Positions 7,466-36,873 of a stretch of 64,000 nucleotides of DNA are shown here, piece after piece; the stretch's first letter is position 1; every line of letters begins with the position of its first letter. The notes beneath the pieces are model-generated. The model was not told the origin of the DNA and did not search any database. It saw only the letters and a program-made list of their open reading frames with translations. The stretch is from Microbacteriaceae bacterium (GTDB taxonomy: Bacteria > Actinomycetota > Actinomycetes > Actinomycetales > Microbacteriaceae). The position numbers were made by a program, and so were the translations under genes. The stretch lies in NCBI GenBank assembly GCA_031177985.1, contig JAPSJW010000004.1, positions 1 through 64,000 of the forward strand. Reading direction: 5' to 3'.

Positions 7466-8398
7466 ATGACGGATTCGGTCGACGTGGTCATCGTGGGCGC
7501 CGGCGCCGCTGGGCTCAGCGCCGCTCTCACTCTCGGGCGTGCCCGCCGCGAGGTGGTGGTGGTCGACGGGGGCGAGCCGCGCAACGGCGTGGCCGCGCAC
7601 TCGCACGGCGTGCTCACGCGCGACGGCACCCCGCCGCTCGAGTTCCTGCGGCTCGCGCGCGAGGAGGTCGAGCGCTACGGCGTGCGCATCGTTCCCGCAA
7701 GGGCGGTCGCCGCCCGCGCGGCGGACGGGTTCGAGGTGGAGCTCGACGACGGCGGCACGCTGCGATCCCGGCAGCTCCTCATCGCGACCGGTCTCGTCGA
7801 CGAGCTGCCCGACACCCCCGGCGTCGCCGAGCTGTGGGGTTCGGGCACCGTCGTCTGCCCCTACTGCGACGGCTGGGAGGTGCGCGACCAGCCGATCGCC
7901 GTGCTGGGCACCGGCCACGGCTCGGTGCATCACGCGCATATGGCCCGGCAGTGGTCACCCGAGGTGACCCTCCTCACCGACGACGGGGCGATGACGATCG
8001 ACGACTTCGAGGCCGAGGAGTTCCGGCTGCGCGGCATCCTCGTCGAGTCCGCTGCGGTCGAGCGGATCGACGGGGACGGGGACAGTGTCGAGGTGTCGTT
8101 CCGGGACGGGCGCAGGCAGCCCTTCCGCAAGCTGTTCGTCCTCCCTCGATACCGCCAGCAGGACGGGCTGCTGCGCTCGCTCGGCGCGGAGGTCGAGCAG
8201 GCCAAGGTGGGTGAGCGGGTCAAGACCGGCACGACCGGCGGCACGACGGTGCTCGGCCTCTGGGCGGCGGGCAACGTCGTCGATCCCGGCGCGCTGGTCC
8301 CGGTCGCGATGGGCGCGGGCGCGGCAGCGGCGGTCGCGATCAACGCCCACCTCGTCGGGCGCGACCTCGAGCGCGCGGTCGCCGACGCGCACCGCTGA
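7466..8398 (+). CDS. Thioredoxin-reductase-like FAD oxidoreductase, paralogue 2
   Basis: 310-residue relative of the preceding gene. FAD motif GAGAAGLSAA near residue 10, ATGLVDELPDTPG, CPYCDGWEVRD with Cys131/Cys134, and AAGNVVDPGALVPVAMGAG near the end. Unlike paralogue 1 its second Rossmann motif is VLGTGHGS, retaining two glycines. The start at 7466 is preferred over the in-frame GTG at 7457 because GGGTGGGAAG serves as ribosome-binding site. Probably in one operon with paralogue 1. An 80-bp inverted-repeat element begins 4 nt after its stop. Confidence 0.88.
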   Translation: MTDSVDVVIVGAGAAGLSAALTLGRARREVVVVDGGEPRNGVAAHSHGVLTRDGTPPLEFLRLAREEVERYGVRIVPARAVAARAADGFEVELDDGGTLRSRQLLIATGLVDELPDTPGVAELWGSGTVVCPYCDGWEVRDQPIAVLGTGHGSVHHAHMARQWSPEVTLLTDDGAMTIDDFEAEEFRLRGILVESAAVERIDGDGDSVEVSFRDGRRQPFRKLFVLPRYRQQDGLLRSLGAEVEQAKVGERVKTGTTGGTTVLGLWAAGNVVDPGALVPVAMGAGAAAAVAINAHLVGRDLERAVADAHR

Positions 8399-8401
8399 CT
8401 A

Positions 8402-8481
8402 CCGTCGGAAACTCAGGAGATCCACCCGTGTCGCGTACGGTCGATGACGCCAGCGGCGAGGATCTCCTGAGTTTCCGACAC
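8402..8481. repeat. 80-bp element with 18-bp terminal inverted repeats, copy 1
   Basis: Left arm TCGGAAACTCAGGAGATC (8405-8422) is perfectly complementary to GATCTCCTGAGTTTCCGA (8461-8478). Aligned with the two copies near 36 kb, the full unit is 80 bp and ends in CGACAC on the right; the outermost left GTG has decayed to CCG here. The interior (about 38 bp) is unrelated to the other copies. It fills the gap between the convergent flavoprotein and globin genes. Confidence 0.85.
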
Positions 8482-8520: not shown

Positions 8521-8949
8521 TCAGGCGTCGAAGGTGTTGACCATGGCGTGGGCCGCGCGCTCGAGATACGCCCAGAGGGTCGCGTCGTGCAGCGGCGGCA
8601 GCGCGAGGTCGTCGACCGCCGCACGCATGTGCTTCAGCCACCGGTCGCGCGCCTCGGGGTTCACCTTGAACGGCATGTGCCGCATCCGCAGCCGCGGATG
8701 CCCGCGTTCGTCGGAGTAGGTCGTCGGACCGCCCCAGTACTGCTCCAGGAAGCCGGTGAGACGCTGGATCGCGCCCTCGAGGTCGTCCTCGGGGTACATC
8801 GGCCAGAGCACGTCGTCGGCGCGCACGCCCTCGTAGAACCGGCGGACGAGTCGCTCGAAGGTCGGCCTGCCGCCGAGCTGCTCCCAGAACGACGGGCCGA
8901 GCGGTTCGTCGGCCTCGCTGCGCTTGAGCGGTAGGGGCGGATCGGTCAC
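8521..8949 (-). CDS. glbO: Group II truncated haemoglobin (GlbO-like)
   Basis: Haem protein of the 2-on-2 globin fold, thought to bind oxygen or protect from oxidative and nitrosative stress. 142 residues: FWEQLGGRPTFERLVRRFYEGV, GPTTYSDERGHPRLRMRHMPF with the proximal histidine in RMRHMPF, and the group II tryptophan in RDRWLKHM. GTG start at 8949 overlaps the mscS stop as GTGA, so translation is probably coupled to the upstream channel gene. The reading frame extends upstream only as an out-of-frame shadow of mscS. Confidence 0.92.
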   Translation of the reverse strand: MTDPPLPLKRSEADEPLGPSFWEQLGGRPTFERLVRRFYEGVRADDVLWPMYPEDDLEGAIQRLTGFLEQYWGGPTTYSDERGHPRLRMRHMPFKVNPEARDRWLKHMRAAVDDLALPPLHDATLWAYLERAAHAMVNTFDA

Positions 8950-34609: not shown

Positions 34610-35992
34610 TTGAAGACCACGGTTGAGAAGCTCAGCCCCACGCGCGTGAAGATCGACATCGCCGTCAGCCCCGAGGAGCTGAAGCCGAGCATCGACCACG
34701 CTTACGAGCACATCGGCTCGCAGGTCAACGTGCCCGGATTCCGCAAGGGCAAGGTGCCGCCGCCCCTGATCGACCAGCGCGTCGGCCGCGAAGAGGTGCT
34801 CAACCACGCAGTCAGCGACGGGCTCGACAAGTTCTACCGCGAAGCCGTCACCGCCGAGAAGCTGCGTCCGCTCGGACGCCCGCAGGCCGACATCACCGAG
34901 TGGCCCGACGTCAAGACCTTCACCGGCGACCTGATCGTCACCGTCGAGGTCGACGTGCGCCCCGAGTTCGAACTGCCCGCCTACGAGGACCTCACCCTCG
35001 AGGTCGACAGCATCGAGGTGACGGATGAGGAGGTCGAGACGGAGCTCTCGAACCTCCGCGCGCGCTTCGGCACGCTCGTCACCGTCGACCGCCCCGTGAA
35101 GACCGGCGACTTCGCCCAGATCGACCTCGTCGCCAAGATCGGCGACGAGGAGGTCGACACCGCGAAGGCCGTCTCCTACGAGGTAGGCTCCGGCGAGCTC
35201 ATCGAGGGCATCGACGAGGCGCTCGACTCGCTCACCGCGGGGGAGACCACCACCTTCGAGGCGCCGCTGCTCGGCGGCGACCGCGAGGGCGAGACCGCGG
35301 AGATCACCGTGACGCTCCTCGCCGTCAAGGAGCGCGAGCTTCCCGAGGCCGACGACGACTTCGCTCAGATCTCCAGCCAGTTCGACACGATCGACGAGCT
35401 GAAGGCCGACCTCAGGGAGCAGCTCGCGAAGTCGAAGGGCTTCAACCAGGGTGTGCAGGCTCGCGACCAGATCGTCGACAAGCTGCTCGAGAAGGTCGAG
35501 ATCCCGGTTCCGCAGGCGCTCATCGACGACGAGGTGCACCGTCACCTCGAGAACGAGAACCGCCTCGAGGACGACGCTCACCGCGCCGAGGTCGCCGAGT
35601 CGAGCGAGAAGACGTTCCGCTCGCAGATCCTCCTCGACTCGGTCGCCGAGAAGGAGGGCGTGAAGGTCAGCCAGAACGAGCTCACCCAGTACCTCGTGCA
35701 GGGCGCGGCCCAGTACGGCATGGAGCCGGGCGAGTTCATCAAGGTGCTCGACCAGAACGGCCAGATCCCGGGCATGATCGGCGAGGTCGCGCGTCAGAAG
35801 GCGCTCGCGATCGTGCTCGACAAGGCGAAGGTCGTCGACACCGAGGGCAACTCGGTCGACGTCTCCGGCTTCACCGCGGCGATCAACCAGCCGGTCGGCG
35901 ACGACGAGGAGTCGTTCGACGTCTCCGAGACGAGCGGCATGCTCGCCGAGGCGAACGACCACGACCACGACCACGCGGGCCACAGCCACTAG
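34610..35992 (+). CDS. tig: Trigger factor, ribosome-associated peptidyl-prolyl isomerase and chaperone
   Basis: First chaperone met by nascent chains at the ribosome exit. 460 residues. Ribosome-binding signature [14 protein letters not shown] near residue 43-55, FKBP-type PPIase domain about 155-240 ([32 protein letters not shown]), and the C-terminal arm domain with helices such as [24 protein letters not shown] start at 34610 with AGGAGA upstream. The tail [12 protein letters not shown] is His-rich, a metal-binding feature seen in some trigger factors. Classic neighbour of clpP genes, here separated by two inverted-repeat elements and a TPR gene. Confidence 0.95.
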
Positions 35993-36058: not shown

Positions 36059-36138
36059 GTGTCGGAAACTCAGGAGATCGCGGCGTGCAGCGTCGCTCTC
36101 GGCGGCATCCGCGCCGGTTCCTCCTGAGTTTCCAACAC
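36059..36138. repeat. 80-bp element with 18-bp terminal inverted repeats, copy 2
   Basis: Left arm GTGTCGGAAACTCAGGAG (36059-36076); right arm CTCCTGAGTTTCCAACAC (36121-36138), complementary except for one A. Interior of 44 bp differs from the other copies. Same 80-bp total as copy 3. The stretch between copies 2 and 3 (36139-36246) holds no feature I recognise. Confidence 0.85.
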
Positions 36139-36246: not shown

Positions 36247-36326
36247 GTGTCGGAACTTCAGGAGTTCCGGGCCGCGACGCGATCGAAGCGCGCCGCCCGG
36301 GTCGCATTCTCCTGAGTTTCCGACAC
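36247..36326. repeat. 80-bp element with 18-bp terminal inverted repeats, copy 3
   Basis: Left arm GTGTCGGAACTTCAGGAG (36247-36264), with two changes from consensus; right arm CTCCTGAGTTTCCGACAC (36309-36326) is intact. 188 bp from copy 2, 28 bp before the 3' end of the convergent TPR gene. Confidence 0.85.
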
Positions 36327-36354: not shown

Positions 36355-36873
36355 CTACTCCGGAGACCGCAGCTCGCCCGCGTAGTACCGCACCGCGCGC
36401 CCGTACTCGGGCAGCAGCCCCGCGAGCGTCTCGAGCGCGAGCGCCGCGCCCTCGACCGGTCGATCCGCGCTGACGAGGGCGAGCGCGCGGAAGGCGTGGG
36501 CGATGGACGCGCGTTCGTGGGTCGAGTCCGGCGGGTACTCGCCCTCGAGCAGCTCGATCGCCTCGTCATGCCGGCCCAGGTTGCGAAGGGTGCTCGCGAG
36601 CTGGATGACCGCCCGCGAGCGGCGGTCGTCGTCGAGGCCCGCCGCGAGCGCGGCCTCGTACAGGGGTGCCGCCTCGGCCTCCCTGCCCGCGAAGTCGAGC
36701 ACCCCGGCCCGCTCGAAGAGCACCTTGGGCTCGTCGCCGGCCCGCTCGGCGATCAGCGCCTCCACCTCGGCGATCACCTCCCGCTCCTCGCGGTCGGATG
36801 CGGATGCCCACACCGCGTCGACGCGGGCGTCCCAGTCGTGGGACTCGAGATCGGAGCTTCGGTCGGAGGTCAT
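36355..36873 (-). CDS. Tetratricopeptide-repeat protein (TPR_5-like)
   Basis: 172 residues, cytoplasmic, all helical. Repeats of the form ERAGVLDFAGREAEAAPLYEAALAAGLD and QLASTLRNLGRHDEAIELLEGE fit TPR units with conserved Gly/Ala/Tyr positions, about residues 45-150. TPR proteins mediate protein contacts; no partner is evident. TACCGT lies 6 nt before the ATG on the minus strand, so it is probably leaderless. Divergent from clpP1 (97 nt). Confidence 0.82.
   Translation of the reverse strand: MTSDRSSDLESHDWDARVDAVWASASDREEREVIAEVEALIAERAGDEPKVLFERAGVLDFAGREAEAAPLYEAALAAGLDDDRRSRAVIQLASTLRNLGRHDEAIELLEGEYPPDSTHERASIAHAFRALALVSADRPVEGAALALETLAGLLPEYGRAVRYYAGELRSPE

Follow-up and report, generated by a model that had tools for sequence, protein, structure and literature searches.

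Monomers of AbiEi bind cooperatively to inverted repeats, and they bend the DNA (PMC7319586). The EDxHD homing endonuclease I-Bth0305I dimerises on a target of nearly 60 bp (PMC3943268), and a Vsr-like protein of the DUF559 family, VsrA of Caulobacter, causes DNA damage in vivo (PMC12907096). A search of the open-access literature, with subscription papers outside its scope, gave no link between DUF559/MTES_1575 or AbiEi nucleases and dispersed inverted repeats.

The stretch of DNA analysed here, referred to as the window, comprises bases 1-64000 of contig C6 (228 kb) of a Microbacteriaceae genome (G000) and carries three copies of an 80-bp element with inverted arms. On the basis of sequence comparison, we give a probability of about two in three to the reading that these elements are the paired double-stranded DNA target of a nuclease which joins an AbiEi-type winged helix to a Vsr/EDxHD-like domain, and whose own gene is bracketed by such elements.

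Results

Copies of the element in the window and its genome

The three elements are each exactly 80 bp long, and their arms match GTGTCGGAAACTCAGGAG with zero to two mismatches (six arms found, compared with 0.05 expected in shuffled sequences). Element 1 (8402-8481) has its arms at 8402-8419 and 8464-8481, around an interior at 8420-8463. Its left arm retains the core GTCGGAAACTCAGGAG (8404-8419, plus strand) with CC in place of the outer GT, and its right arm (minus strand) is perfect. It is flanked by the convergent genes 7466-8398 (plus strand) and 8521-8949 (minus strand). Element 2 (36059-36138) lies 3' of the trigger-factor gene tig (34610-35992, plus strand), with a perfect left arm (36059-36076, plus strand) and one mismatch in the right arm (36121-36138, minus strand). 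Element 3 (36247-36326) shares the gap with element 2 and precedes the gene at 36355-36873 (minus strand), which is convergent with tig; there are two mismatches in its left arm (36247-36264, plus strand) and none in its right arm (36309-36326, minus strand). Apart from ATC..GAT, which extends the arms inwards, the 44-bp interiors are unrelated. The coordinates, the length and the conserved ends with free interiors, which had been described from the letters of the window, were all confirmed.

With up to three mismatches allowed, a scan of the whole genome identified 13 elements, 79-81 bp in length. C6 carries 12 of these, and the remaining one is at C7:21.5 kb. The same scan found no element on the other 22 contigs, and two more single weak matches look like chance.

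The sequence-only reading had proposed a transcription-collision barrier or a hairpin at convergent 3' ends. An RNA element of this sort, acting as a bidirectional terminator, a collision barrier or an mRNA-stabilising hairpin, would suit the position of the window copies, and the arms would pair in RNA from either strand. However, tandem gaps hold 80 of the 144 elements of the named genomes, convergent gaps 22 and divergent gaps 14, with 19 elements within a called gene and nine at a contig edge, which is close to the background by intergenic length (65% tandem, 15% convergent and 20% divergent). In the window genome itself, the convergent loci are the window copies and one more, two loci are divergent, and most are tandem. 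Consistent convergence is a feature of the window only, and with an orientation mix near the background the convergent-end model fails by the criterion that the sequence-only reading had set for it. An Rfam search of the window returned tRNAs only, with no match at the element copies. The arms are conserved as sequence, their spacing is quantised in steps of ~11 bp, and the bracketing of a nuclease gene, described below, would be left unexplained by a role in RNA, which we consider to have very little probability.

Distribution and helical phasing of the arms

Scanning one genome per species recovered 94 stretches with the paired motif. All of the named ones belong to Microbacteriaceae (Salinibacterium, Glaciihabitans, Galbitalea, Lacisediminihabitans, Rhodoglobus and Homoserinimonas), and further stretches came from MAGs, one of them labelled merely Actinomycetota. 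The paired motif was not found on viral contigs. Elements were found in at least 20 Microbacteriaceae genomes besides that of the window. Any match to the strict motif was seen in 6 of 59 relatives, with populations in a few only; the strict motif arms numbered 42 in the complete relative G021 and 10 in G028.

The arms almost always occur in facing pairs (> <), and extra arms extend in the same way (>>><<<); in the named genomes the arms were chosen by pattern, so that their conservation there is partly built in. Multi-arm arrays of the form >>><<<, with multiples of ~11 bp between the arms, were noted at G021 C1:1,921,722-1,922,026 and 2,192,726-2,192,985 and at L107:5948-6266. These arrays sit in intergenic gaps of unrelated genes, and the genes adjoining the largest arm arrays showed no common theme.

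The start-to-start spacing of facing arms in 169 pairs fell at 58-60 (14 pairs), 68-72 (70), 79-82 (79), 90-91 (3) and 101-103 bp (3), with none between. As the first collection step accepted any spacing from 55 to 85, the search pattern cannot have produced the gaps within that range. The best-fitting period was ~11 bp and none of 2000 random sets was equally periodic, a statistic that is descriptive, the 169 pairs being phylogenetically non-independent. A length difference of 11 bp likewise separates orthologous elements (interiors of 56/57 compared with 68 bp), and direct arm-to-arm distances of 33, 44, 55, 66 and 88 follow the same ~11-bp period. The fixed length of 80 bp described for the window copies holds within G000, at 79-81 bp; between genomes, it is quantised and not constant. 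Such ~11-bp steps are expected of a pair of protein sites on the same face of duplex DNA, and not of a loop of RNA or single-stranded DNA, and they support the earlier suggestion of a putative protein-binding pair with fixed helical phase.

A nuclease gene beside glyS is bracketed by elements

Elements from many genera share one orthologous stretch, which contains genes that we take, from reading their translations, to be lepA, hrcA, dnaJ, era, leuA, recO, uppS, glyS, dusB, dgt and dnaG, and they are densest at glyS. Here, two elements about 1.0-1.1 kb apart bracket a single gene. Its product comprises an AbiEi-like winged-helix N-terminus and an MTES_1575/DUF559 (Vsr/EDxHD-like) nuclease C-terminus. 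Orthologs that are 50-60% identical were present in 14 named genomes, nearly all bracketed and a few with one visible side, and in G021 the glyS-linked nuclease is likewise bracketed. The nuclease reading frame usually runs into the 3' element.

The invariant residues of the nuclease include D222, E232, H239, D246 and K249, and D234 is N in some orthologs. The Pfam family AbiEi_4 was matched by 4 of 14 members (best E 0.0024). The predicted structure was of moderate confidence, with a mean pLDDT of 73 and residues 237-254 below 50. Foldseek analysis of this model identified the AbiEi antitoxin 6y8q (E 2.7e-4) as the sole match with an E-value below 0.001; weak matches were the DUF559-like 3hrl and the homing endonuclease I-Bth0305I (3r3p, with a probability of 0.96 but an E-value of 0.19). 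No relative of the nuclease was found in phages, and one weak relative was found in plasmids.

In the window genome, the cognate gene (L267, C6:176,849-177,705) has glyS and a DsbA-like gene among its neighbours. It is frameshifted and reads as two frames, 176,849-177,262 and 177,211-177,705, so the system may be decaying in this genome. The frameshift is apparently a short deletion near C6:177,260, and all 13 elements are nonetheless uniform. The observation that no transposase is seen remains true of the window; a candidate enzyme gene does exist, and sits ~140 kb away at the density peak.

Nine of the 13 elements of G000 lie within 60 kb of the nuclease gene, as do all 15 loci of G059 within 71 kb. 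G021 has two nuclease copies, 76% alike, with the likeness ending in the 3' arm, and 9 of its 19 elements are within 50 kb of either copy. In G059, a dif-like site, a truncated DnaA-like match and several elements appear twice, on contigs C1 and C3, which suggests duplicated contigs in the assembly.

The hint at a REP-like unit gained support from these findings. A REPIN-like element, moved as a single-stranded hairpin by a RAYT (Y1 HUH transposase), would also present as a dispersed, intergenic, inverted 16-mer doublet with a variable spacer and an enzyme gene flanked by repeats (cf. PMC3116915). However, the flanked enzyme is a restriction-fold nuclease and not a Y1 transposase, and the arms can pair, but the ~11-bp spacer steps favour duplex DNA. 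We consider a RAYT-moved element very unlikely.

Position relative to the replication terminus

The stretch of G021 that is colinear with C6 (G021:1,513-1,701 kb) lies close to the point opposite dnaA. This colinearity raised the idea of a link to the replication terminus, in the form of terminus-organising sites like matS bound by a MatP-like protein. A dif-like site, CTGACATAATGTGCATTATC, was located in all 17 genomes tested, with one copy per genome in nearly all, and is probably the dif site of Microbacteriaceae; it lies at C1:1,769,124-1,769,143 in G021 and at C14:29,117-29,136 in G000. The distance from the element peak to dif was 80-145 kb in G021, ~340 kb in G063 and ~500 kb in G059. 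GC skew was uninformative in G000. The terminus idea was dropped as the peak does not track dif: the elements are not centred on it, their peak follows the glyS-linked nuclease, and a matS-like role is largely refuted.

Distant paralogs carry their own elements

An association of the elements with the nuclease predicts that its distant paralogs also carry elements of their own, and this is what was found. The arm motifs of the paralogs are CCGAAAYGACGGA (L250/L251), CCAAATGAAGGAG (L252/L260), CGAAATGAAGGA (L261), CACGGAAATGCAGGAGC (L256), CAACGGATYTCACGGA (L262), CGCGTGTAGGT (L264), CGAGACCTCCACTTYTG (L265) and TTTTCCCGTCAGTAGATGCCC (L266). Longer arms with almost no spacer, forming near-perfect palindromes of ~47 bp, were seen at L319:1773-1820 and 2767-2814 and at L266:628-677 and 1787-1836, in families outside the clade of the window.

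DUF559/MTES_1575 nucleases were matched in 106 of 148 Actinomycetes genomes. Giant open frames (L269-L298, mostly 1200-2700 aa) contain the MTES_1575 domain as well, and are apparently distinct from the short self-bracketed nucleases. Since a class-wide PF18741 search gave mostly giant multidomain proteins, the short nucleases were fetched by place.

An automatic bracketing test, which took in 39 loci fetched by place from elsewhere in Actinomycetes, was positive for 22 of 59 nuclease loci, compared with 1 of 170 control genes, the one being the nuclease itself. A start-independent test, which replaced an envelope-based version with poor gene starts, was positive for 35 of 64 nuclease loci and for 3 of 379 control genes, the controls having been drawn from two genomes only. 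Of these three, one was again the nuclease itself and two were single GC-rich words with unequal spacing; at the bracketed nuclease loci, the spacing is nearly always equal on the two sides. Bracketing was not detected by this test at the remaining 29 of the 64 loci, a few of which show visible elements with more mismatches. Arm similarity tracked protein identity (Mantel r = 0.62, p = 0.0002) across 25 loci, with the glyS orthologs entered as one representative, plus the second G021 copy.

The paralog motifs that were analysed are also dispersed in their own genomes. AAAYGAMGGAG gave 65 matches in G060, 51 in G061 and 27 in G059, all of which hold the corresponding nucleases, compared with 8, 0 and 0 for the reversed control; four matches each were counted in two genomes that yielded no such paralog. 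Most of the AAAYGAMGGAG matches are facing pairs with a motif-specific spacing. The spacing of paralog pairs was 64 ± 1 for AAATGAAGGAG in G060, and 63-67, also 77 and 87, for AAATGACGGAG. Three same-direction AAATGACGGAG arms at G061 C2:134,773-134,833 are set in exact 25-bp steps, outside the ~11-bp rule. In 400-kb stretches of two genomes from another family (non-Microbacteriaceae), the motifs of L302 and L306 gave one solo pair each, far from the gene and with the exact spacing of the cassette (49 and 45), while the reversed motifs gave no pair in those stretches at equal stringency.

Duplication, turnover and drift

In young cassettes (L325, L303, L302, L306 and L320), the flanking elements are direct repeats with the interior included, and the likeness stops at the arms. 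Because the likeness is confined to the element, the element is the unit that is duplicated, with its interior decaying later. A Galbitalea contig carries two elements that share an identical interior and are separated by 193 bp (L105:1533 and 1726), and local tandem duplication thus also makes copies. Local duplicates aside, interiors within genomes are barely above the shuffled level.

Filled and empty orthologous sites were identified in comparisons of L102/L126/L151 with L177/L141, of L098/L099 with L103, and of C6 with G021. At large divergence, no target-site duplication was visible at the empty orthologous sites, and no transposition intermediate was seen. At orthologous filled sites, the interior identity was 0.61, compared with 0.58 in shuffled sequences, while the arms persist. 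Arm identity at these sites is biased by the pattern-based selection; persistence is unbiased, and recognisable elements at orthologous places despite randomised interiors therefore argue for selection on the arms. This suggests that selection on the arms continues, which could point to a function for the host instead of spread alone.

The main alternative is a domesticated host system, in which the AbiEi-nuclease-like protein or another protein would use the paired sites for chromosome architecture or regulation by looping, following an old spread and under host selection. The survival of the arms around near-random interiors at orthologous sites would be expected of such a system, and so would the vertical inheritance of the glyS-linked gene and its elements across genera, the multi-arm arrays (> > > < < <) and the clustering of elements in one chromosomal domain. 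However, the sites turn over between genera, with about three of ~10 common to G000 and G021, and empty sites exist. Motif and element population differ from one paralog to the next, which does not resemble one host-wide network, and self-bracketing of the gene recurs in many unrelated branches of the nuclease family. We regard a domesticated system as unlikely, while giving it more weight than the other alternatives.

Discussion

Returning to the paired target of a self-bracketing nuclease as the preferred reading, we propose that one nuclease protomer would occupy each 16-18-bp arm through its AbiEi domain, and that the pair would dimerise on one face of the DNA. The spacer sequence would then be free, with the arms kept on the same helical face, so that its length would change in ~11-bp steps. 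The nuclease gene with an element on each side would constitute a cassette, and diversification of the family over time would have produced many nucleases that differ in arm motif and have separate sets of dispersed solo elements. The nuclease would nick or cut the element, and during recombinational repair elements, and now and then the gene itself, would be copied to new intergenic places, preferentially near the nuclease gene in some lineages. Old copies would retain their arms while the interior drifts. Bracketing and the co-variation of motif and protein argue strongly for arm binding by the nuclease; cutting is predicted from the modelled fold, and copying by repair would be the least certain step.

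The elements look like a genomic parasite or a domesticated system in actinobacteria, so far undescribed. We lean towards a broader view in which they represent an undescribed and widespread class of actinobacterial element, consisting of nucleases with their own two-arm target on both sides together with dispersed phased sites, and forming a duplex counterpart of REPIN/RAYT that arose independently from a restriction-fold nuclease. Actinomycetes very often carry nucleases of the DUF559/MTES_1575 type, most of which have no known role, and for these a self-bracketing element would serve as a readable cognate site. Such cognate sites would make nuclease specificity predictable from sequence, and the protein-motif co-variation would supply a natural set of nucleases whose long target sites are known. 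The ~11-bp quantisation may in addition report DNA twist in living cells.

With regard to described systems, the N-terminal domain of the nuclease resembles AbiEi (6y8q), the antitoxin of type IV TA systems and a binder of inverted repeats. In contrast to AbiEi, a nuclease domain is fused to it here, the sites flank both gene ends and are dispersed, and no AbiEii toxin partner was noticed. VsrA of Caulobacter (DUF559) belongs to the same nuclease family and is reported to damage DNA in vivo; however, VsrA is tied to cytosine methylation and mismatch repair, and paired cognate sites are not described for it. The elements share with MITEs a short length, inverted ends and an intergenic location, but their interiors are near the shuffled level between copies, there is no DDE transposase and no target duplication was seen.

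The likeness to the EDxHD homing endonuclease I-Bth0305I would lie in a similar predicted catalytic fold, seen as a weak Foldseek match, and by analogy in a long (~60 bp) target bound by a dimer and a gene that is spread by cutting. The present system differs in its AbiEi-type DNA-binding domain, in a target of two separated arms and in many solo targets within the same genome. Insertion of a homing endonuclease gene interrupts the target and renders the carrier immune, whereas here the gene has an intact two-arm element on either side. Because intact targets flank both sides, this is not a standard homing endonuclease gene.

REPIN/RAYT systems show the same inverted pair of ~16-mers, a spacer of set length and free sequence, intergenic dispersal, a flanked dedicated enzyme gene and an enzyme-specific motif (PMC3116915). 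The enzyme here, however, is an AbiEi-winged-helix and Vsr/EDxHD-like nuclease, as judged from Pfam and fold searches, and not a Y1 HUH transposase. The spacing is helically quantised, which implies duplex DNA, and there are arrays of extra arms and, in some genomes, clustering in cis. As the enzyme is unrelated and the substrate is apparently duplex DNA, the elements are not members of the REPIN/RAYT group. Provided that the system spreads or has been domesticated, the way of life seen in REPIN/RAYT would have been arrived at a second time, independently.
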